In this document: piece by piece, positions 20,683 through 55,959 of the stretch
How positions within the stretch are numbered: the first letter of the stretch is position 1
Layout of the letters: every line of letters begins with the position of its first letter
DNA from: Natronorubrum texcoconense
Lineage (GTDB): Archaea; Halobacteriota; Halobacteria; Halobacteriales; Natrialbaceae
Length of the DNA: 64,000 nucleotides
Assembly: GCF_900100335.1 (NCBI RefSeq)
Contig: NZ_FNFE01000004.1
Span: 1 to 64,000, forward strand
Direction: 5' to 3'
The notes under the pieces: model-generated
Databases searched by the model: none
What the model saw: the letters and a program-made list of their open reading frames with translations, nothing else
What the model was told of the DNA's origin: nothing
Program-made: the position numbers and the translations under genes

Positions 20683-22869
20683 ATGATAGCGGACGATACA
20701 TTCCGTGTTCTCCTCATCGAGGACAATCCAGGCGATGCCCGATTGATCGAGGAGATGCTTCGGGAAACGACCGTTCCCCTGTCGTCGATCAAAAGCGGGA
20801 GTGGCGATACCCCACACCCGGAACCTGGAACCGGTACGATGGAGCTACTGCACGCCGATCGACTCGAGACGGGACTCCAGCAGTTGGCCGAGTCGACGGT
20901 CGATATCGTGTTGCTCGATCTGGGGCTCCCGGATAGCACGGGACTGGAGACGCTTACGACCGTCCTCGAGCACTCGGTAGCCGTGCCAATCGTGGTGCTT
21001 ACGGGTCTCTCCGATGAGTCGGTCGGCATCCGTGCCGTCCAGCAGGGTGCCCAGGCGTACCTGGTGAAAGACGAGATCGGTAGCGAACTCCTGTCTCGAT
21101 CGCTCCGGCACGCGCTCGAGCGCCACCAGCGTGAGACGCAGTTGACCGCGCTGTCGACGGTCTCGAGGGAACTGATGGCGATGACGTCCTTCGACGACAT
21201 CGCCGAGCGAGCGGTCACGGCGGCGGCGGACTCACTCGACTTTCCCGTCGCGATGGTCTGTCTCTACGACACCGATCACGGCACGTTGCGGCCGCTCGCC
21301 GCCACCGACCGAGCGGAAGAACCCCTACCCACCGAGAACCCGACCGGCGACGTGGCCGACGTTTCGACCCGACTGACGTCGTCCTGTGCGGAGATCGTCG
21401 GACGAGCCTTCGCCACGGATCAGGTCCTCATCGACGCCGACGGGAGTTCCCAGACTGACCGCACGAACGCCGAGTTCCCGCTGGACAGCCGAATCGTGTT
21501 CCCGCTCGCTACCCACGGCGTCTTCCTCCTTGGCTCGGCGAGTTCGCCGACGATCCCGTCTACCGGCGTCGATTACGCGAAGATTCTGGCGACGAACACG
21601 CAGGCGGCACTGGAGCGTCTCGAGCGCGAACGGCGACTGCAGGAGCGGGAGGCCGAACTCGAGACGCAGACCGAGTCGCTCGAGCAACTCGACCAGATCA
21701 ACGCGATGATCCGCGATATCGTACAGGGCGTCGTCCACGCGACGACGCGAACCGAGATCGAGCAAGCCGTCTGCGATCGACTCGTGGCCGCCGACTCGTT
21801 CCGGTTCGCCTGGATCGGCGTACACGACGCGCTCACGCAGGCGCTGACGCCACACGCTCGTGCGGGCGTCGAGGACGGCTATCTCGAGAGCGTCACGATC
21901 ACGACCGACGAGAGCCAGACCGGGCGAGGGCCGGGTGGAACTGCCGTACGCACGCGTGAACTCCAGGTGATCGAGGATACGATGCGGGATCTCTCGTACG
22001 CCCCGTGGCGCGAGGAGACGATGAAACGCGGCTATCGGTCGATCGCGAGTATTCCGCTCGTGTACGCGGAGACGCTGTACGGCGTGTTGACCATCTACGC
22101 GGATCGCCCGGGGATCTTCACCGATCGGGTGCAGGCTGTCCTCTCCGAACTCGGTGAGACGATCGCCCACGCGATCAACGGGGTCGAGAGCAAGAAGGCG
22201 CTGATCAGCGATCGGGTCGTCGAACTCAAGTTTCAGGTGCGGGACGCGGAGCTCGTGTTCCTGGAGTTGACCGACGCGGTCGATTGCGAGATCACCTTCG
22301 AGAGCGTCGTCCCGCGAACCGACGATCGGCTTCGGGTCTTTTTCTCGACCCACGGCGCGCCGGTCGAGGAGGTGGTCGCGTTCGCCGAGCGAGCGCTCGC
22401 CATCGACGATCTCGCGCTCGTCGCAGAACGGGAGGGCGGCTGCGTGTTCGAGTGTACGCTGCGGGAGCCGAACGTCGTTTCGTTCTGTCTCGAACAGGGG
22501 GTGACGGTGCAGACGCTGACGGCAGAGCACGGAACGGGCCAACTGACGGTCGAACTCTCCAGCAACGCCGACGTTCGCGGATTTGCGGAGCGATTCCAGT
22601 CGACGTATCCGGAGTCGACGCTGGTGGCGAGTCGCGAAGACGAGCGATCGGTGCAGACGCGTCAGGCGTTCCAGACGACGCTCGACGACCGTCTCACCGA
22701 ACGTCAGGCGGAAGTCCTTCGAACGGCCTTCTTCAGCGGCTACTTCGAATCACCGCGCGCGAGCAGCGGACGAGACGTGGCGGCAACCCTCGACATCGCA
22801 CAGCCGACGTTCAATCACCACCTCCGCGCAGCCCTGCGAAAACTCTTGACACTCCTCTACACCGACTGA
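20683..22869 (+). CDS. Receiver-GAF-GAF-Bat/HTH_10 transcriptional regulator
   Basis: A 728-residue haloarchaeal regulator. Residues 8-150 are a receiver domain with the acidic pocket Glu13/Asp14, phosphoacceptor Asp79 in VLLDLGLPD and Lys129 in YLVKDE, interrupted by a Ser/Gly/Pro-rich insert (residues 34-58). Two GAF-like domains follow (about 155-310 and 340-495), separated by a coiled coil. Residues about 505-655 are the bacterioopsin-activator (Bat) domain, and residues 668-722 are the HTH_10 DNA-binding domain (LTERQAEVLRTAFFSGYFESPR). The GAF-Bat-HTH tail is paralogous to that of the giant regulator at 41386-46311. It probably activates genes in response to a phosphorelay and a small ligand. 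A HalOD1 protein gene follows. Confidence 0.92.
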   Translation: MIADDTFRVLLIEDNPGDARLIEEMLRETTVPLSSIKSGSGDTPHPEPGTGTMELLHADRLETGLQQLAESTVDIVLLDLGLPDSTGLETLTTVLEHSVAVPIVVLTGLSDESVGIRAVQQGAQAYLVKDEIGSELLSRSLRHALERHQRETQLTALSTVSRELMAMTSFDDIAERAVTAAADSLDFPVAMVCLYDTDHGTLRPLAATDRAEEPLPTENPTGDVADVSTRLTSSCAEIVGRAFATDQVLIDADGSSQTDRTNAEFPLDSRIVFPLATHGVFLLGSASSPTIPSTGVDYAKILATNTQAALERLERERRLQEREAELETQTESLEQLDQINAMIRDIVQGVVHATTRTEIEQAVCDRLVAADSFRFAWIGVHDALTQALTPHARAGVEDGYLESVTITTDESQTGRGPGGTAVRTRELQVIEDTMRDLSYAPWREETMKRGYRSIASIPLVYAETLYGVLTIYADRPGIFTDRVQAVLSELGETIAHAINGVESKKALISDRVVELKFQVRDAELVFLELTDAVDCEITFESVVPRTDDRLRVFFSTHGAPVEEVVAFAERALAIDDLALVAEREGGCVFECTLREPNVVSFCLEQGVTVQTLTAEHGTGQLTVELSSNADVRGFAERFQSTYPESTLVASREDERSVQTRQAFQTTLDDRLTERQAEVLRTAFFSGYFESPRASSGRDVAATLDIAQPTFNHHLRAALRKLLTLLYTD

Positions 22870-23014: not shown

Positions 23015-23323
23015 ATGAGCGCAACCGAACCCGTAACCCAACAGCTGTCTCCGGCCGACGAGGTGTGTACCACGGTAGCTCTGGCGGTTTCGGCCGCGAC
23101 AGATACCCCAGTCGACGAACTGCCGCCGCTCTATACCGTAATCGATCCGGACGCTCTCAACGCGATTTTCCAACCGCGAACCGGTCGGGCACAGAACGGG
23201 ACGCAGCTCTCCTTTACGATAGCGGGGTGTGCGGTCAGCATTCGAGACGACACCGTTACCGTCACCGCGAACTCGGAGACGCCGAGTGAACGAGCCGCCT
23301 CGGGGTACGCACGCGCGAACTGA
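23015..23323 (+). CDS. HalOD1 output-domain protein
   Basis: A 102-residue protein made of one HalOD1 domain, an archaeal signalling output domain described in Halobacteria. The signature is VDELPPLYTVIDPDALNAIF around residues 34-53, followed by a beta hairpin (TQLSFTIAGCAVSIRDDTVTVT). There are no metal or nucleotide motifs. It lies downstream of a receiver-GAF-Bat regulator on the same strand and may be cotranscribed or modulate it; three other HalOD1 proteins are in this window. Function in signalling is inferred from genome context in the family. The ATG at 23015 is the only start giving the domain. Confidence 0.85.
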   Translation: MSATEPVTQQLSPADEVCTTVALAVSAATDTPVDELPPLYTVIDPDALNAIFQPRTGRAQNGTQLSFTIAGCAVSIRDDTVTVTANSETPSERAASGYARAN

Positions 23324-39059: not shown

Positions 39060-39509
39060 ATGAGTGATGATACCAAGTGGGATGGCAGAGACGATGCCCA
39101 CACGGAACGCTCGTCGGCCGGGGATCTCCCGCCGCGAGAGATACTGGAGTTGGATCACGTCTACGAGGCGCTCGGCCACCCTCGGCGTCGGTATCTCTGC
39201 TACACGCTCCTGGAGGATGCGAACTGGTCGCTGATCGATCTGGCGACGAAAATCGCCGCGTGGGAGAACGACGTTCCCGACCATGAGGTTACCGACGGCC
39301 AACGAGAGCGGGTGTACGTCTCGCTCTATCACGCCCACGTTCCCAAGCTCGTCGACGAGGGTGTCATCACCTTCGCCGACGAGTCCGAAACGATCACGAC
39401 CGCCGGGAACGCCGAACAGGTTTTGACCGCGCTCGCGGGCATGGGGGCGACTCTCGACGGCGCTCAAGAAACGCACGCGCGAAGTGAGATGAACGATGGA
39501 GAGCAATAA
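39060..39509 (+). CDS. Winged-helix protein of the DUF7344 type
   Basis: A 149-residue protein. After 32 polar residues a winged-helix domain (LDHVYEALGHPRRRYLCYTLLEDANW, DLATKIAAWEND) contains the family pattern RERVYVSLYHAHVPKLVDEGVITF, which resembles the haloarchaeal DUF7344 winged helix. The ATG at 39060 is preferred over an upstream in-frame ATG. Its stop codon overlaps the start of the following HalOD1 gene by 14 bases, so the two are cotranslated. It is probably a transcription factor whose input is HalOD1-linked; the target is unknown. Confidence 0.78.
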   Translation: MSDDTKWDGRDDAHTERSSAGDLPPREILELDHVYEALGHPRRRYLCYTLLEDANWSLIDLATKIAAWENDVPDHEVTDGQRERVYVSLYHAHVPKLVDEGVITFADESETITTAGNAEQVLTALAGMGATLDGAQETHARSEMNDGEQ

Positions 39510-39852
39510 CGGGAGAATCAGTGGCGGCGAACCGGCCCTCAGCGGGGACACTCACTGGCGACAGGTCGCACAGCGACACTACGAACCCGACCGAGACGGC
39601 GGCCTCACGACGCCGATCGTGTTCGCCATCGCGGAAGCCGCTGACGTTTCCCCGAGCGAGGTGAAATCCCCGCCGCTGTACGAGACTGTCGACGTGGCCG
39701 GCATCGAAGATGCGTTCTTCGGCTCCAGTGCGGGAACCGCACCTCGACGAGGGACGGGAACCGTCGAATTTCACTACACCGACTACCTCGTCAAAGTCAG
39801 GAGCGACGGCTGGATTCAGATCTACGAGCCGACCGACACCGAGTCGTTGTGA
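39496..39852 (+). CDS. HalOD1 output-domain protein
   Basis: A 118-residue protein. After an N-terminal 30-residue polar segment, the HalOD1 domain is recognisable by SEVKSPPLYETVDVAGIEDAFF and the hairpin GTVEFHYTDYLVKVRSDGWIQIYEP. It overlaps the 3' end of the winged-helix gene by 14 bases, a classic translational coupling. The two proteins probably act together, with the HalOD1 domain as a signalling output or adaptor. The gene is followed by 146 bases before the convergent receiver-PAS gene. Confidence 0.83.
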   Translation: MESNNGRISGGEPALSGDTHWRQVAQRHYEPDRDGGLTTPIVFAIAEAADVSPSEVKSPPLYETVDVAGIEDAFFGSSAGTAPRRGTGTVEFHYTDYLVKVRSDGWIQIYEPTDTESL

Positions 39853-39998
39853 GCTGACACTACTCTCTCGGGACCCGATACGGTCTCTCGCGGTGTCGAA
39901 CCGTTCGGCACGGCTAACCATCCCGCCGGCGTCGTGCGCGACGCGCGTGTTCGTTCTCGTCTTCGGCGCTTTCGTCTTCGGCGCTTCGTCCCGCAGTT

Positions 39999-40859
39999 TC
40001 ACCCTTCGACGGTCGGCGTATCCACGCCGAACACGAGGCTCCCGTCCTCGAGTCCCCCGAGCCGAACCCTGACGTCGAACGGCTCGCCCGATCCTCGCAG
40101 TCCGGTACAGCTGCCGGTCCAGCGCCAGCCGTCCGTGACGGTCGGGATCGCGGTGGTCTCGAGGCGCTCGACGCTGTCGTCGGTGAACAACGTCTGCCAG
40201 ACCGTCCCGCAGAGCGCGTCGCGATCGGCGCCGAACTGCATCGCGAACGATCGGTTGGCGAACTCGAGATTGCCGTCGGGTGCGGTGATGGCGACCGCGT
40301 CCTGGGCGAGTTCGACGCTGGCGAGCGATCGGCGGGAGAGCGCGGCGAGTCGGCGGTGTTCGACGAGCGTCTCGACGCGGTGTCGCAGTCGGTCGGGAAG
40401 CGTCGTCGTGTCGGGGTGGGCGACGCAGTCGGCCCATCGGTTGCTATGGATCGCGTCGACGGCGACCGACGAGTCGTCGGTGCCGTCCACGAGGAAGACG
40501 ATCGGTAAGGTGGGCGTTCGATCAGTTACCCGGTCGAGCAGGTCGAGGCCGTCGCCGTCCGCCAGCGTGTACTCGCTGATGAGACAGTCGACGTCCTCGA
40601 GCCGCGCCATCGCGTCCGTGATCGACTCGGCCGTCCGGATCGTGAACTCGTCCCCGGTGGTCGCCTCGAGGTAGTCTCCGTACCGGTGATCGTTCGCGAC
40701 GACGAGCGCGGTGATCGAGTTGGAAACCGGCGGACAGTCGCCGTCGCTCGTCGCGATCGATGGAATCATCTCCAGTTGGCCGCCGCTCGAGTCGGTCGCT
40801 CGAGCCGCGTGCTGTCGACCATCGGTAGCGGGCACGTCACTCGAGTCGGCAGTAGCCAC
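39999..40859 (-). CDS. Receiver-like plus PAS protein with Glu at the phosphoacceptor site
   Basis: A 286-residue protein. A low-complexity N-terminus of about 45 residues precedes a receiver-like domain (residues 50-165) and a PAS domain (residues 178-282, VELAQDAVAITAPDGNLEFANRSF). In the receiver the expected Asp is Glu96 (CLISEYTLADGDG), the acidic pocket is reduced to a single Asp (VVANDHR), and the usual Lys before the last strand is His148 (CVAHPDT). Phosphorylation is therefore unlikely, and the Glu may mimic a permanently active state. GTG start, three bases after the stop of the upstream HalOD1 gene, which indicates translational coupling. Confidence 0.82.
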   Translation of the reverse strand: MATADSSDVPATDGRQHAARATDSSGGQLEMIPSIATSDGDCPPVSNSITALVVANDHRYGDYLEATTGDEFTIRTAESITDAMARLEDVDCLISEYTLADGDGLDLLDRVTDRTPTLPIVFLVDGTDDSSVAVDAIHSNRWADCVAHPDTTTLPDRLRHRVETLVEHRRLAALSRRSLASVELAQDAVAITAPDGNLEFANRSFAMQFGADRDALCGTVWQTLFTDDSVERLETTAIPTVTDGWRWTGSCTGLRGSGEPFDVRVRLGGLEDGSLVFGVDTPTVEG

Positions 40860-40862
40860 CGC

Positions 40863-41120
40863 TTACGCACGAACATGGACCGTTCCGTCGATCAGGATGG
40901 TCCCGTCGCTTCGGACTTCGACGGCGTGATCACCGTACGAGAACTGGACCCGGCCGTTGACCGTCGCGTTCCCAGTAAATAGCTGATCGAGCGCTTCGGG
41001 GTCGACGACGTGGTAAAGGGGCTCGAGTTCGGTCGGATCAGTCTCGGTCGCGTCGGCGAGGGCGTCGATAACGGTGAGGCTGATCGAATCGTTGTGGTAA
41101 TCGAGCGTCGCTTCGGGCAT
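40863..41120 (-). CDS. HalOD1 output-domain protein, coupled to the receiver-PAS gene
   Basis: An 85-residue protein that is a single HalOD1 domain, with TELEPLYHVVDPEALDQLFTG and the hairpin GRVQFSYGDHAVEVRSDGTILIDG. It is the first gene of a two-gene unit; its stop codon and the next GTG start are separated by three bases. Start at 41120 gives the shortest complete domain; a TTG/ATG upstream would add non-conserved residues. The upstream region is shared with the giant regulator on the other strand and contains a large inverted repeat. Confidence 0.82.
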   Translation of the reverse strand: MPEATLDYHNDSISLTVIDALADATETDPTELEPLYHVVDPEALDQLFTGNATVNGRVQFSYGDHAVEVRSDGTILIDGTVHVRA

Positions 41121-41162
41121 TATGTTCGTCCGAACGCGAACGACGGCTATTCTCCTGTCCAT

Positions 41163-41203
41163 TATACACGTAATCTCGTTGCGATTGAGACACTACGTGT
41201 ATA
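41163..41203. promoter_or_regulatory. 10-base inverted repeat with TATA-like arms in the divergent promoter region
   Basis: TATACACGTA (41163-41172) and TACGTGTATA (41194-41203) are exact reverse complements separated by 21 bases. Inner sequences TCTC and GAGA extend the symmetry with a small offset. The arms resemble TATA boxes facing the HalOD1-receiver operon (left) and the giant regulator (right). This could be a shared operator. A further near-palindromic AT block, CTTAAATATATTAA (41317-41330), is probably the promoter of the giant gene. Confidence 0.5.
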
Positions 41204-41385
41204 GAAGCCCGGACGAAACCGCACGACTCCGTCCGGGTACTCGTACCGAACCCGTCGCGCTCTGGGCCGTCTCTCCTCTCCCTTCTCTCCGACAATCTTA
41301 TTTCAATAATACAGTTCTTAAATATATTAAGTGTGGAGAAATCTAAAACCGCGAACATCATTTGTGGGCGTTGCGTACGCGCTGT

Positions 41386-44300
41386 ATGGCTATCCCTTCG
41401 TCTTGCAGGGGATCGTTCGTGTGTCTCACCGGTCGAGAGATCCGACTGCTCGCTCTCGGCCTCCTCTCGCTCGCGTTCGGCGCGTTGATCGGTTTACTGG
41501 TTGTTGTATCGAGTTCCGTCGGACCGACGGCATCGATGGATCCGAGTCCGATAGCGGAACCGACGCCGGGCATTCCGGTCGTCCTGCCGTTACTGTTCGG
41601 ACTCGCCGCATCCGGTGATCCGGACCGAGATACCGCCCTCGAGCGACTCGCGACCGACCTCGAGTCGTTCGTCGCCGAGTTCACGGCCGACAGTTCGCTG
41701 CCGGCGTCGAGCCGGGACGGGAGGGGAGGAGACGGAACGAGTCGGAACGGAGCCGCTGCAGACGCGACGGAACGGGACGAGACGGACCCGGATACACCGG
41801 TACCGGACGAACCAACCGCGAAGGCACCGGCCCCGAACGACCGAGCCGCGGACGCATCGGCACGAGTCGACACGAGCCGGGTCCGAGAGGCGGAGCCGAC
41901 GTTCGACCTCGAGCGCGACGACGAACTGGGTCGACTGTCGGCGGCCATCGAGACGCTCGCGACGACGGTTCGAGAACGCGACCGACAGTTCGAAGCGGTC
42001 TTCGACGATCCGAAGACGCTCGTCGCCCTGCTCGATCCGAACGGGACGGTGCGACGGATCAACGAGACGGCCCTCGAGTATCTCGACAGCGACCGGGAGG
42101 AAGCGATCGGCGAGCCGTTCCCAGCGATGTCCTGGTGGGCTGACACGCCGACTGGGGACGTACAAGCGTGGATCGACCGCGCCGAATCCGGCGTGTACGT
42201 CGAGTACGAAGCGCAATTGAACGACCCGGACGGGAATCGACGGTGGGTGAGCGGCACGTTTCGGCCGGTGACGAACGAGGCGGGGGAGGTCGCCTCGATC
42301 GTCGTCTCCGGTCGGGATGACACCGCGCGGAAGGAACGCGAACAGCGACTGGAAGCGGCGAACGCGCGGCTCGAGACGCTGTTCGAGAGCGCTCCCGACA
42401 TGATCGACGTTCTCGACGCCGACGGGCGGATCGTCGACGCGAACCGACGGCTCCGTACCGAACTGGGGTACGAGGAGGGCGAACTGCTCGGGACGGGGAT
42501 CTGGACGTACGACAAACTGGTCGACGAAGCGGATGTCGAGTCGATCCTCGAGGAGCTGTCGGTCGGTGACCGACGGACGTTCGAAGGGCGCTATCTGCGC
42601 CGTGACGGCTCGGAGTTTCCCGTCGAGATACAGCTGCTGCACCTCGATCTCCCGGAGGCGAACCGGTTCGTGGCTATCAGTCGCGACATCACCGAGCAGA
42701 AGGCTCGCGAACGGGAGTTACAGCGGCACACGGCGTACACCGACGAGTTGCTCGACGCCGTCGACGACGTCTTCTACGTTATCGACGGGAACGGCGAGAT
42801 TCAGCGGTGGAACGAGACGCTCTCGTCGGTGACCGGCTTCTCGACAGCGGAGATCGAGTCGATGAACGCCGCCGAGTTCTTTTCGCCCGCGGATCAGCGA
42901 CTGGTCGCCGACGCGATCGACGAAGCGCTCGAGACGGGCTCCGCGCGAGTGGAGGTGTCGCTGCTCACCGCCGACGGCGAGTCGATTCCCTACGAGTTCA
43001 TCGGCGCCAGACTCGAGGATCTCGACGGGAACGCCGTCGTCACGGGGATCGGTCGCGACATCTCCGAACGCAAAGAGCGCGAACGCCAGCTCTCGACGTT
43101 GATGAGCAACGTCCCGGGGATGGTGTACCGGTGTCGGAACGAGCCGGACTGGCCGTTCGACTTCGTCAGCGAGGGCTGTTTCGAACTCACCGGCTACGAC
43201 CCCGAAATGCTGGAGAACGACGACGTGAACTGGGCTTCGGATATCATCCTCGAGCGACACGGCGAGCTGTGGGAGACGGTTCAGCAGGCCGTCGCGAACC
43301 GGGAGCCGTTTCAAGTAACCTTCCCGATCGAGACGGCCGACGGCGACCGCCGTTGGGTCCGCGAACGCGGACGAGGCGTTTTCGACGAGAACGGCGAACT
43401 CGAGTCGCTAGAGGGTGTCATCACCGACGTCACCGAGCAGATCGAGAACGGGCGTCGACTCGAGCGAACCACGCGGCTCCTCGAGCAGTCCCAGCGGCTG
43501 GCCAACATCGGGGCCTGGGAGCTCGACGCGACCGAGGAGCCGTACGATCTCGAGTGGACCGATCAGGTGTCCCGGATTCACGGGCTCCCGCCCAGCGAAG
43601 CGGTCGACGTGGAGCGAGCGCTCGAGTTCTACCACCCAGCGGATCGGCCGACCGTCAGGTCGGCCCTCGAGCGCGCCATCGAGGACGGCGAACCGTACGA
43701 TCTCCAGGTCCGGCTCCAGTCGGACGACGGCGACCAACGGTGGGTGCGCACGATCGGCGACCCGGTCGAAGCGGACGGGACCATCGTCAAAGTTCGAGGG
43801 GCATTTCAGGAGATTACCGACCGCAAACGACGCGAACGCGAACTCGAGCGCTACGAGACGATCATTCAGGCGGTCGGTGACCCGGTCTATACGCTCGACG
43901 AATCGGGCGAGTTCCAGTTCGTCAACGACGCGATGGAGTCGCTTACGGGCTACGAGCCCGAGCAGATGCTCGAGTGGGACGTTGCGGACGTCATGACGAG
44001 CGCGGATCTCGAGGCGGCCAGGGAGTTGGTTCGCGACCTGCTCCGCGAGGGCGAACCGTACGGGACCTTCGAAATGGGCCTCGTGACAGCTGACGGCGAC
44101 GTGATCGAAGCGGAGAACCACGTTGCGCTGTTACCGATGGACGACGGCGAGTTCGCCGGCACCGCGGGCGTCGTCCGCGATATCACCGAGCGCAAGGAGC
44201 GCGAACGCGAACTCGAGCGCACGACCGATCTGTTAGAGCGGGTCCAGCGCATGGCGAAGGTCGGTGGCTGGGAACTGGACGTCGACGCCGAGCCGCCGGC

Positions 44301-46311
44301 AGCGACCTGGACCGACGAGTGCTATCGATTGCACGGCCTCTCCCGCGACGTCACGCCCACGCTCGAGACGACTCTCGAGAGCTATCATCCGGACGATCGC
44401 CCGTTCGTTCGCACCCGACTCAGAAACGCGATGGACGCCGAACGGGGGTACGATTTCGAAGCCCGGCTCCAACCCGACGAGGACGAGAGCAGGTGGGTAC
44501 GAGCGACCGGCGAGCCGATCTTCGACGCGGCGGGCGACCTCCGCGCGTACCGCGGCTCGATCAAGGACATCTCCGAGCAGAAGAGACGAGAACTCACGCT
44601 CGAGTCGCTCCACGAGACCGCACGCGACCTGCTCAACGCCGAGACGGAGACGGCGATCGCGGAACTGGTCGTCGAGACGGCCGCGGATATCCTCGAACCG
44701 GGGAGCGCGGGAGTGTATCTGCTGGACTCGGGAACGAATCGGTTCGAGCCGACCGCGTTCACGGACGAGTTCGCCGATCGAACCGACGGCGCGCCGTCGA
44801 TCACGGTCGGCGACAACGACTCCGTGCTCTGGAACACCTATCTGGCCGGCTCACAGACGGTCGTCGACGACGCTGCGACCAGCGACCGCTCGCCGCTGTT
44901 CGGCGGCGACGTGCCGGGCGGGTTGCTGGTCCCGATCGGCGACCACGGGGTGTTCGTCCTGGTCACTCCGCCCGCCACCATCGACGACGAGGCGCGACGA
45001 CTGGTCGAGACCCTCGTCGCGACGACCGAAGCCGCGTTCGACCGCCTCGAGAGCGAGGCGAGCCTTCGAGAACGCGACGCGGAGCTGGAGGCACAGAACC
45101 GGCGGCTCCGACGCCAGATTCAGATCACCGAGATCATTAGGGGGATCGACCGGTCGCTCATCGGCGCCAACAGCCGCGAAGAGATCGAGCAAACCGTCCC
45201 CGAACGGCTCGTCGAGGGCGACACCGTCGCGTTCGCCTGGATCGGCGACGTCGACGCCGCCGGAAGGACGCTCGAGCCGCGGAGCTGGGCGGGCGCCGAA
45301 CCGGAGTATCTGGACGCGGTGTCGTTCGATCTCGAGACCGACGCGGACGAGCCGTCCGTTCGGACCGTCGGGTCGGGGACGCCTTCGGTCGTCGAAAACG
45401 TCGTCGAGGGGCTCAAAGACGAGCCGTGGCGGACCAGTGCGCTCGATGCGGGCTTCCAGTCGGTGCTCTCCGTGCCGCTGTCGTTCGAGGAGTACAGCTA
45501 CGGCGTGCTCACGGTGTACGCCGACGAGCCGGACGCCTTCACCGACCTCGAGCGGACGGTGTTTGCGGAGCTCGGCGAGGGAATCGCGAACGCGACGAAC
45601 GCGGCGAAGACGCAGGAAGCGCTCCACGCGGAGACGCTCGTCGAACTCACGCTCGCGCTCGAGGGCAGCGACGACGCGCTGTCTCAAATCGCGAGGAAGA
45701 CCGGCGCGACCGTCGAGTACGAGGGCCTCGGCGTCGACTCCGGCTCGGAAACGGTGCTGTTCTTCGAGACGAACGGTGTCGCGCCGGACGATGTCCGTAC
45801 CGTCCTCGACGAGCTCGTCTCCGTAACGGACGCGCGACTCGTCACCGAGTCGGACGAGCAGTGTCTGTTCGAGGCGACCGTCACGAGCGACGTCGTCGCC
45901 TCTCGGCTGGTTCGTCACGGCGCCAGCCCGCGGTCGATCACCGCCGACGGCGACCGAACGATGATCACCGTCGACGTTCCCACGACGACCGACGTCAGGG
46001 AGTTCGTCGAGATGCTCGCCGAGCGGCACGCCGGCGTCGAACTCCAGTCGCGGCGCCACGTCAGGCGATCGTCCACCACGAGACAGCTGTCGTCGCTGTT
46101 CGACGAACTGACCGATCGCCAACTCGAGGTGCTGCGGACGGCGTATCTGGCCGGTTTCTTCGAGTGGCCCCGCGAGAGCACCGGCGAGGAGATCGCCGAG
46201 ATGCTCGAAGTAACTCAGCCGACGGTCAACCGGCACCTCCGGATCGGCCAGCAGCGACTGCTGGCTCAACTGTTCGAGAACGGCGCGCTCTCGTTCGCCG
46301 ACGAGGCGTAA
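41386..46311 (+). CDS. Membrane-anchored seven-PAS, two-GAF, Bat/HTH_10 regulator
   Basis: A 1641-residue regulator, unusually large for the family. Two N-terminal hydrophobic segments (about 18-44 and 62-78) suggest membrane anchoring, followed by an acidic linker and a helical stretch. Seven PAS domains occupy about residues 195-1060, each ending near a DIT/DIS-like motif joined by a charged helix (RERE or RRE). Two GAF-like domains (about 1065-1215 and 1235-1390), a Bat domain (about 1400-1560) and HTH_10 (LTDRQLEVLRTAYLAGFFEW) follow. There is no kinase domain, so sensing seems to be coupled directly to DNA binding. ATG at 41386 is preferred over a TTG eight codons earlier. Confidence 0.9.
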   Translation: MAIPSSCRGSFVCLTGREIRLLALGLLSLAFGALIGLLVVVSSSVGPTASMDPSPIAEPTPGIPVVLPLLFGLAASGDPDRDTALERLATDLESFVAEFTADSSLPASSRDGRGGDGTSRNGAAADATERDETDPDTPVPDEPTAKAPAPNDRAADASARVDTSRVREAEPTFDLERDDELGRLSAAIETLATTVRERDRQFEAVFDDPKTLVALLDPNGTVRRINETALEYLDSDREEAIGEPFPAMSWWADTPTGDVQAWIDRAESGVYVEYEAQLNDPDGNRRWVSGTFRPVTNEAGEVASIVVSGRDDTARKEREQRLEAANARLETLFESAPDMIDVLDADGRIVDANRRLRTELGYEEGELLGTGIWTYDKLVDEADVESILEELSVGDRRTFEGRYLRRDGSEFPVEIQLLHLDLPEANRFVAISRDITEQKARERELQRHTAYTDELLDAVDDVFYVIDGNGEIQRWNETLSSVTGFSTAEIESMNAAEFFSPADQRLVADAIDEALETGSARVEVSLLTADGESIPYEFIGARLEDLDGNAVVTGIGRDISERKERERQLSTLMSNVPGMVYRCRNEPDWPFDFVSEGCFELTGYDPEMLENDDVNWASDIILERHGELWETVQQAVANREPFQVTFPIETADGDRRWVRERGRGVFDENGELESLEGVITDVTEQIENGRRLERTTRLLEQSQRLANIGAWELDATEEPYDLEWTDQVSRIHGLPPSEAVDVERALEFYHPADRPTVRSALERAIEDGEPYDLQVRLQSDDGDQRWVRTIGDPVEADGTIVKVRGAFQEITDRKRRERELERYETIIQAVGDPVYTLDESGEFQFVNDAMESLTGYEPEQMLEWDVADVMTSADLEAARELVRDLLREGEPYGTFEMGLVTADGDVIEAENHVALLPMDDGEFAGTAGVVRDITERKERERELERTTDLLERVQRMAKVGGWELDVDAEPPAATWTDECYRLHGLSRDVTPTLETTLESYHPDDRPFVRTRLRNAMDAERGYDFEARLQPDEDESRWVRATGEPIFDAAGDLRAYRGSIKDISEQKRRELTLESLHETARDLLNAETETAIAELVVETAADILEPGSAGVYLLDSGTNRFEPTAFTDEFADRTDGAPSITVGDNDSVLWNTYLAGSQTVVDDAATSDRSPLFGGDVPGGLLVPIGDHGVFVLVTPPATIDDEARRLVETLVATTEAAFDRLESEASLRERDAELEAQNRRLRRQIQITEIIRGIDRSLIGANSREEIEQTVPERLVEGDTVAFAWIGDVDAAGRTLEPRSWAGAEPEYLDAVSFDLETDADEPSVRTVGSGTPSVVENVVEGLKDEPWRTSALDAGFQSVLSVPLSFEEYSYGVLTVYADEPDAFTDLERTVFAELGEGIANATNAAKTQEALHAETLVELTLALEGSDDALSQIARKTGATVEYEGLGVDSGSETVLFFETNGVAPDDVRTVLDELVSVTDARLVTESDEQCLFEATVTSDVVASRLVRHGASPRSITADGDRTMITVDVPTTTDVREFVEMLAERHAGVELQSRRHVRRSSTTRQLSSLFDELTDRQLEVLRTAYLAGFFEWPRESTGEEIAEMLEVTQPTVNRHLRIGQQRLLAQLFENGALSFADEA

Positions 46312-54742: not shown

Positions 54743-55066
54743 TTACGGCTCGGCTGCGACGGGTCCCCGTCGGATTCGAATCTCCCCGTCGCTGTGGACG
54801 CCGATGTCGAACCCCTCGTAGGTGAACCACAGCTGGTGGACGCCGGCGTCGTCGCTTCGACGGGCGTGCCGGACGAGCGAGTCGAGGGAGTCGGGTTCGA
54901 CGGCCTCGTAGAGCGGGCTGAGTTCCGCCGGCGCGTCGCCGGTGAGCGCGGCGACGGCCGTCACGACGGCTTCGCTCGCCCGCTCGCCGGCTTCGGGGTC
55001 GAACGTCGCGACGTATCGGAGTTCGGCCGCCTCTGACGCGTCCGTCTGATCGTCTGCGGAGGGCAT
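54743..55066 (-). CDS. HalOD1 output-domain protein next to a Bat-type regulator
   Basis: A 107-residue protein: an acidic N-terminus of 15 residues, a strand-helix segment (LRYVATFDPEAGERASEAVVTAVAAL), the HalOD1 signature (PAELSPLYEAVEPDSLDSLV) and hairpin (HQLWFTYEGFDIGVHSDGEIRIRRG). It lies downstream of the Bat/HTH_10 gene on the same strand, with 212 bases between them; those contain a short repeat TACTA-TG-TAGTA at 55105-55116 and a minus-strand AT-rich promoter near 55121. The pairing with a Bat regulator mirrors 20683-23323. Confidence 0.83.
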   Translation of the reverse strand: MPSADDQTDASEAAELRYVATFDPEAGERASEAVVTAVAALTGDAPAELSPLYEAVEPDSLDSLVRHARRSDDAGVHQLWFTYEGFDIGVHSDGEIRIRRGPVAAEP

Positions 55067-55278: not shown

Positions 55279-55959
55279 CTACTCGGCCGAAAACGACGTT
55301 GGGCGTCGAGCCACCTGTTCGTCGATTCCGAACAGACGGGCGAGCAGGTTCCGGTGCCCGCGACGGAGCCGTCCCGCGAGCGACTGTCGGGTAATTCCCA
55401 GCTCGGTCGCGAGGTCGTCGAGCGTCGCCCGTCTGGGGTCGTCGAAATAACCCCGTTCGAACGCCAACTCGAGCGCCTCGAGCTGGGCCAGCGTCAGCTC
55501 GGTGTTCGTCTCGCGGGACTCGAGCGGCTGGAGTCGGCGAACGGAGAGCCGAACGTCGTTCGTCCGACACCGGCTCTGGAACCGTTTGATCGCGTCGTGG
55601 TCGTCCGCTCGGAGTCTGAACCGCCACTGGTTCCGTTTGCCGACCGCCGAGAGAAGCGTGACGTTCGAGTCGACGATCGCGCTGACGATGCCGTTGGCCG
55701 TCGGATCCCACTCCGCTCGAAAGAGGACGTTGCCGTCGTCGAGCTCGTCGACCAGCGTGAACGTCTCCGCGGGCGGCGACGCCTCGAGTGCGGCCGTGAC
55801 GTCGTGTCGGTCCGCACCGCTGATCCAGAGATAGGGAAACACTGCCCCGTTCGTCGGAACGATCCGCTCGAGTTCGACCGTCGCCTCGGGAACCGCCGAG
55901 AACAGCGAGCCGAGCGGAAACTCGTCGGCGGGGACGGCGAACTCGACGAGGATTGCCAT
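55279..55959 (-). CDS. Bacterioopsin-activator (Bat)/HTH_10 family regulator
   Basis: A 226-residue protein. Residues 1-160 form the Bat domain (starting MAILVEFAVPADEFPLGS and containing ERIVPTNGAVFPYLWI), and residues 165-220 the HTH_10 domain (LTLAQLEALELAFERGYFDDPRRATLDDLATELGITRQSLAGRLRRG). It has no receiver, PAS or GAF input, so it is a minimal member of the family. It probably activates or represses nearby genes by DNA binding; target unknown. A HalOD1 gene follows downstream on the same strand. Confidence 0.92.
   Translation of the reverse strand: MAILVEFAVPADEFPLGSLFSAVPEATVELERIVPTNGAVFPYLWISGADRHDVTAALEASPPAETFTLVDELDDGNVLFRAEWDPTANGIVSAIVDSNVTLLSAVGKRNQWRFRLRADDHDAIKRFQSRCRTNDVRLSVRRLQPLESRETNTELTLAQLEALELAFERGYFDDPRRATLDDLATELGITRQSLAGRLRRGHRNLLARLFGIDEQVARRPTSFSAE

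Follow-up and report, generated by a model that had tools for sequence, protein, structure and literature searches.

Between positions 39060 and 46311 of a 64,000-nt stretch of DNA from Natronorubrum texcoconense (the window), a giant Bat-type regulator gene, E, lies divergently next to a gene, D, for a small stand-alone HalOD1 protein, which is followed by C, a gene for a PAS protein with a receiver-like domain. Gene order compared across haloarchaeal genomes indicates a conserved module made up of D, C and E, with D–E as its core, and we propose, at a probability of about 0.6, that this is a one-component module in which D would be the dedicated partner of a kinase-independent sensor-regulator, E, within a feedback circuit. 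The HalOD1 domain occurs in more than 2,000 haloarchaeal proteins. The 2018 survey that defined it describes, in the sections consulted, an output domain with function unassigned, present in REC-HalOD1, HalOD1-PAS and stand-alone forms and in fusions with REC, PAS and KaiC-like domains, the stand-alone form being found in nearly all haloarchaea with up to 49 per genome (PMC5847659). No partner or mechanism for HalOD1 was found in the portions of the HalOD1 literature searched, and no description of a D–C–E module in the open-access portions, subscription papers lying outside the search. The three genes are as follows.

40863..41120, minus strand: D, stand-alone HalOD1 protein of 85 amino acids (PF18545), found at 66 loci of the family Natrialbaceae
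39999..40769, minus strand: C, pseudo-receiver and PAS protein, with its likely start at ATG 40769
41386..46311, plus strand: E, Bat-type regulator of 1641 amino acids, with a transmembrane (TM) segment, seven PAS, two GAF, BAT and HTH_10 domains

Gene content and conservation of the D, C and E locus

Pfam and NCBIfam searches together with a TM scan confirmed the view of E taken in the first-pass annotation of this DNA, namely that of a giant, membrane-anchored Bat regulator with seven PAS domains and no kinase. The C-terminus of E holds a BAT domain (PF15915, 140 bits) followed by HTH_10 (PF04967, 57 bits), both above the cut-off, and its N-terminus carries a hydrophobic TM segment, which almost all orthologues share. 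HisKA and HATPase domains were absent from the five proteins of the locus (A–E) in the Pfam search, which covered the locus proteins only, and Pfam found no REC domain in E, the TM segment standing in its place. E therefore resembles the known Bat regulators in its GAF, BAT and HTH_10 C-terminus and its PAS sensing domains, but differs from them in having no N-terminal REC and in its TM anchor, its seven PAS domains, its length of about 1640 residues and its divergent HalOD1 neighbour. Since the consulted sections of the 2018 survey report that REC has diverged or been replaced in some Bat-like proteins (PMC5847659), E is a variant of the Bat-type HTH_10 regulators and not a non-member. D matches HalOD1 with 89.6 bits (gathering cut-off 26.3; domain of about 75 amino acids). 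Its start is the ATG at 41120; the codons upstream of it ('MDRRIAVV') are not conserved as protein, contain stops in some orthologues and are promoter sequence.

Relatives of A, C, D and E (A belongs to a neighbouring gene pair, A–B, described below) were located in 125 Natrialbaceae genomes, and the surrounding regions were fetched and their gene order read. E was divergently adjacent to D at 64 of the 66 D loci and C was adjacent at 61, both neighbours being present at 59. The two D loci without an adjacent E are an incomplete second copy that lies at the edge of a contig and a locus in the rearranged genome G118, in which D and C stay together and E lies 84 kb off. The block is typically flanked by ahcY on one side and by genes for a CPBP protease and the Hjc resolvase on the other. 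C is missing from five family genomes (G016, G034, G056, G066 and G068; a 3' remnant persists in G066), all of which retain D and E; C is thus dispensable, and D–E is therefore taken as the core. In G023, which has lost D, E is truncated at its N-terminus and the promoter element described below is gone. A reciprocal search with the C-terminal 230 amino acids of E gave a clear score gap (at least 206 bits, against at most 171 bits for other Bat proteins); the matches of at least 206 bits lay mostly at D loci and otherwise at contig breaks or in second copies. A second, decaying ahcY-C-D copy was observed near a contig end (L077, G072:C7:46000-51269), in which C and ahcY are broken up while D and the promoter element are intact.

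The linkage extends beyond the family. A profile of C was run on 391 genomes of the class and 18 loci were fetched; one of these (G030) proved to belong to the same family, leaving 17 outside it. The same D–C–E layout was present at 14 of these 17 loci, which had been chosen by C, so that the co-occurrence of orthologues across Halobacteria, put forward in the first-pass annotation as a check on its proposed circuit, was indeed found. Six of the 14 triads have no ahcY, Hjc or CPBP gene nearby (for example L181, L182, L183 and L188). Taken together, the comparisons establish a conserved linkage at the level of gene order, and a partnership of D with E is well supported by it.

The annotation of C required revision. 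Its open reading frame (39999-40859, minus strand) extends up to a GTG at 40859, and it is from this start that a 3-base coupling of D and C had been proposed. In about half of the C orthologues the start coincides with the position corresponding to ATG 40769 or precedes it by one residue; with this ATG the D–C gap is about 93 nt, and gaps elsewhere are mostly 60-120 nt. The ATG is thus probably the start and the GTG an unlikely one, which removes the 3-base coupling. The PAS_4 domain of C scores above the Pfam cut-off and its receiver domain below it. Across 60 orthologues, the phosphoacceptor position is occupied by S (11), E (9), P (9), A (8), V (6), Q (5), D (4), R (3), T (2) and once each by Y, H and G, and an acidic residue is therefore confined to the E and D cases. 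The Glu acceptor attributed to C is real in the window's own sequence, while a functional Glu-type receiver finds no support in an acceptor so poorly conserved, and C is therefore regarded as a pseudo-receiver. It has the layout of archaeal REC-PAS response regulators and differs from them in its non-conserved acceptor and sub-threshold receiver; the conserved portion is the C-terminal PAS domain, with the motif GWRWTG.

The element upstream of D

A perfect 10-base inverted repeat, TATACACGTA-N21-TACGTGTATA, occupies positions 41163-41203 between D and E. Alignment of the 66 loci and of the E-side intergenic regions distinguished the following features.

41162..41173: proximal arm TTATACACGTAA, overlapping the D TATA box and reading ..TTACGTGTATAA.. 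toward D
41193..41204, minus strand: distal arm CTATACACGTAG, a conserved near-palindromic half-site 31 bp from the proximal arm
41345..41366, plus strand: a second conserved block, aaCC.c.c.taTcATt, immediately upstream of E and probably its transcription-start region

The upstream regions of D share a single conserved block, consisting of CTATACACGTAGTGTC, 14-15 nt, ATTACGTGTATAAYGG and then about 40 nt to the D ATG, the rest of the spacer being unconserved. When the pattern TATACAYGTA..TACRTGTATA was searched in the 125 genomes with any spacer of 10-35 nt allowed, it was found in 21 of them, always with a spacer of 21 nt and always upstream of D, once per genome except in G072, where it occurs twice at the two D loci; the reversed pattern, used as a control on the same genomes, gave no match. 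The fixed spacer, the restriction to D and the empty control place the repeat beyond chance. Within the window's own genome, the 16-bp context of the distal arm had no other site at fewer than three mismatches.

The first-pass annotation had placed this repeat in a promoter region shared by both units. The repeat itself stands, and its assignment can be narrowed: across the 66 loci the arm-to-arm distance is constant (31 bp, or 32 in nine loci) and the distance from the element to D is nearly so, whereas the distance to E varies. Because E also has a conserved upstream block of its own, the element belongs to the D promoter and not equally to both genes. In G118, where E lies 84 kb away, a decayed element remained with D. 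Outside the family, the distal half-site is retained in the form YTATA.. at all 14 loci. Conservation of the element is thus established by alignment. Covariation between the arms was considered as proof of a bound dimer and rejected, as it was not significant.

HalOD1 genes elsewhere and the neighbouring A–B pair

The pairing of HalOD1 with HTH_10 regulators recurs outside the locus. The window's own genome contains 31 HalOD1 and 51 HTH_10 matches above cut-off, and five of these HalOD1 domains have an HTH_10 domain no more than 500 bp away, in every case a short way upstream and in the same orientation; rotation within contigs expects 0.54 domains at such a distance (P=0.0004, with contig extents approximated). 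D–E is additional to these five, the HTH of E being 5 kb from D. Two of the five pairs fall in the window: a REC-GAF-BAT-HTH_10-type regulator at 20683-22869 (728 amino acids) with, 145 bp past its end, a HalOD1 gene at 23015-23323 (plus strand), and a short HTH_10 regulator at 55279-55959 (226 amino acids, minus strand) followed by a HalOD1 gene ending at 54743. Among paralogous E-type genes whose neighbours were read in other genomes, a HalOD1 gene is adjacent in nine cases and missing in five. The HalOD1 genes of the paralogous giant Bat regulators at L206-L209 and L217-L221 are divergent or downstream in the same direction, and the CTATAYRYRTAG element is absent there. The recurrence of HalOD1–HTH_10 pairs is thereby established by genomic position.

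One HalOD1 protein with described roles is DdfA (HVO_2176) of Haloferax volcanii, which, according to the parts of the reports consulted, acts in shape and motility and in quorum-sensing responses (PMC10869688, PMC12240190), is required for shape and motility changes within the first quorum-sensing response of an archaeon to be analysed in detail (PMC12240190), and is encoded near sph3, samp3 and rdfA (PMC7824242, PMC10869688). D has the same domain and passes the NCBIfam model for DdfA (NF053557; 74.4 bits, cut-off 70), and differs in that this match is non-specific: D ranks only third among eight paralogues of its own genome that pass. The identification of D as the DdfA orthologue on this match was accordingly rejected, another of the eight scoring best. 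As a side observation, an equivalog model exceeded by eight paralogues of one genome suggests that automatic 'DdfA' names may be unreliable. Compared with the HalOD1 proteins in the consulted sections of the survey (PMC5847659), both D and the protein encoded by B are of the stand-alone form, and where the survey has REC-HalOD1 and HalOD1-PAS fusions, HalOD1 here lies beside a gene for a REC-PAS protein; no partner is named there, whereas E is a conserved neighbour of D, and a promoter element is dedicated to D. An AlphaFold (AF2) model of HalOD1 built from five sequences predicted two helices followed by four strands (mean predicted local distance difference test score 66). No relative with a solved structure was found by sequence, and the model, of low-to-moderate confidence, gave no convincing PDB match (best Foldseek E 0.5; best Z 4.3, WWE-like).

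Two further genes lie beside C.

39060..39509, plus strand: A, DUF7344 winged-helix-type protein of 149 amino acids (Pfam PF24035)
39496..39852, plus strand: B, HalOD1 protein of 118 amino acids (PF18545), overlapping A by 14 nt

The overlap of a winged-helix frame with a HalOD1 frame had been reported in the first-pass annotation and is borne out. A scores 85.2 bits against PF24035 (E=4e-24, cut-off 27.8) and B 50.1 bits against HalOD1. None of the 65 other orthologous loci has the pair at this site; G109, the closest relative (C 87% identical), has C immediately after ahcY, and its ahcY–C intergenic region does not align to the window's flanks, so that no exact insertion boundary was drawn. 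Close relatives of A occur in about one-fifth of the 125 genomes, in some as several copies, and at the 14 such loci that were read B follows A and the pair lies outside the D–C–E block. Outside the family, plasmids of Halosimplex, Halorussus and Haloarcula carry A and a directly following small gene next to IS5 transposases; in Halosimplex and Halorussus the small gene is annotated as HalOD1 and both genes carry identical accessions (WP_248652993 and WP_248652994), so that A–B accessions are common to two families with the pairs at unrelated sites. The flanks of 15 loci showed a conserved gene pair, no common terminal repeats and no clean empty site. No viral relatives of A, D or the HalOD1 protein at 23015 were found in IMG/VR by pattern search, nor of D among INPHARED phages. 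Because it occurs at other sites and on plasmids and is absent from the other orthologous loci, A–B is a separate, patchy, plasmid-type travelling two-gene cassette that arrived beside the module in this lineage. The DUF7344-HalOD1 cassette on plasmids of other families, next to IS5 transposases, is represented by L169, L170 and L171. At L119 (G038:C6:46000-54000) the cassette lies between CPBP and Hjc genes; this neighbourhood is the flank of the D–C–E block elsewhere, by chance or as a preferred site.

Proposed mechanism and alternatives

In the mechanism that we propose, E would be anchored by its N-terminal TM segment, sense through its stacked PAS and GAF domains, and act on DNA via its C-terminal HTH_10. 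D would be a small dedicated partner that changes the activity of E or carries its output; that D alone serves as a HalOD1 adaptor tuning E, as the first-pass annotation had it, remains plausible. C would be an optional PAS sensor in which a degenerate receiver fold is retained and phosphorylation is no longer relied on; as its acceptor is not conserved, a loss established across the orthologues, and as E has neither HisKA nor HATPase, a phosphorelay is not expected. Expression of the D–C operon would start from a promoter with its TATA box inside one of two CTATACACGTAG-like half-sites spaced three helical turns apart, to which a regulator would bind as a dimer or tetramer, in the simplest case E, otherwise another locus-dedicated factor. 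Since the proximal arm holds the TATA box, a protein occupying both arms would either obstruct or organise initiation at D, and the bound regulator would set the level of D and C and so close a feedback loop.

Several observations weigh against this proposal. Loci of one family share descent, and the 64 of 66 are therefore not independent observations; the D–E linkage is broken in G118; neither D nor E adjoins the more distant C-like genes of three loci (G206, G352 and G412); paralogous E copies stand without a HalOD1 neighbour in G053, G051, G067, G016 and G101; and most HalOD1 genes of the window's own genome are not beside an HTH_10 gene. Furthermore, the HTH_10 helix of E shows almost no variation, in contrast to the proximal arm, and covariation between the arms does not exceed chance (P=0.38), which together lend no support to an operator co-evolving with E. 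The contact of D with E, the binding of the element by E and the sign of the regulation are what we infer from this arrangement.

There is a substantial minority chance that a different factor, such as a TFB/TBP variant or an unlinked repressor, recognises the CTATACACGTAG element, with the D–C promoter not under E; the overlap of the proximal arm with the TATA box agrees with this, as do the nearly constant HTH of E beside a varying arm and the lack of arm covariation, whereas the occurrence of the element at a single locus in the own-genome and family searches favours a locus-dedicated over a global regulator, and the element is absent from G023, where D is lost and E truncated. Slightly less probable, and on balance unlikely, is that D, together with C, is an output of E and not an adaptor, E switching on or off a nearby HalOD1 effector gene whose product acts elsewhere in the manner of DdfA. 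The single genomic element at a fixed distance on the D promoter would fit such a target, as would the roles of DdfA in H. volcanii as far as the consulted reports describe them (PMC10869688, PMC12240190); elsewhere in the genome, however, HalOD1 genes follow HTH_10 genes on the same strand, which suggests co-expressed partners and not a target, and the fusions of HalOD1 to REC, PAS and KaiC-like domains in the survey sections consulted (PMC5847659) also speak against an output role.

That D, C and E are unrelated genes carried along within a generally conserved ahcY...CPBP-Hjc segment is disfavoured and in our judgement improbable: those genes do flank most family loci, but the triad occurs outside the family without them, HalOD1 pairing recurs at paralogous and unrelated HTH_10 loci, and C has repeatedly been lost alone while D–E was kept. 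Least probable of all is the arrangement favoured in the first-pass annotation, in which all five genes form one circuit. A–B does lie about 150 bp from C here, and B is a HalOD1 protein; yet the pair is missing from every other orthologous locus, including that of G109, and elsewhere it occupies unrelated positions and plasmids close to IS5 transposases, two families sharing identical accessions. Co-occurrence thus upholds the part of that circuit formed by D, C and E, and A–B falls outside it.

Beyond the locus, we tentatively suggest, as a possibility somewhat short of even odds, that HalOD1 may be a general partner module of Bat/HTH_10 regulators, of which D–E would be the most conserved instance, a sensor-regulator that is kinase-free and membrane-tethered and is itself under the control of a HalOD1 subunit via a once-per-genome feedback site. 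The conserved HalOD1–regulator pair of D and E, with an element confined to the locus, provides a concrete and small test system for the role of HalOD1, and the genome-wide adjacency of HalOD1 and HTH_10 genes suggests that the answer may generalise.

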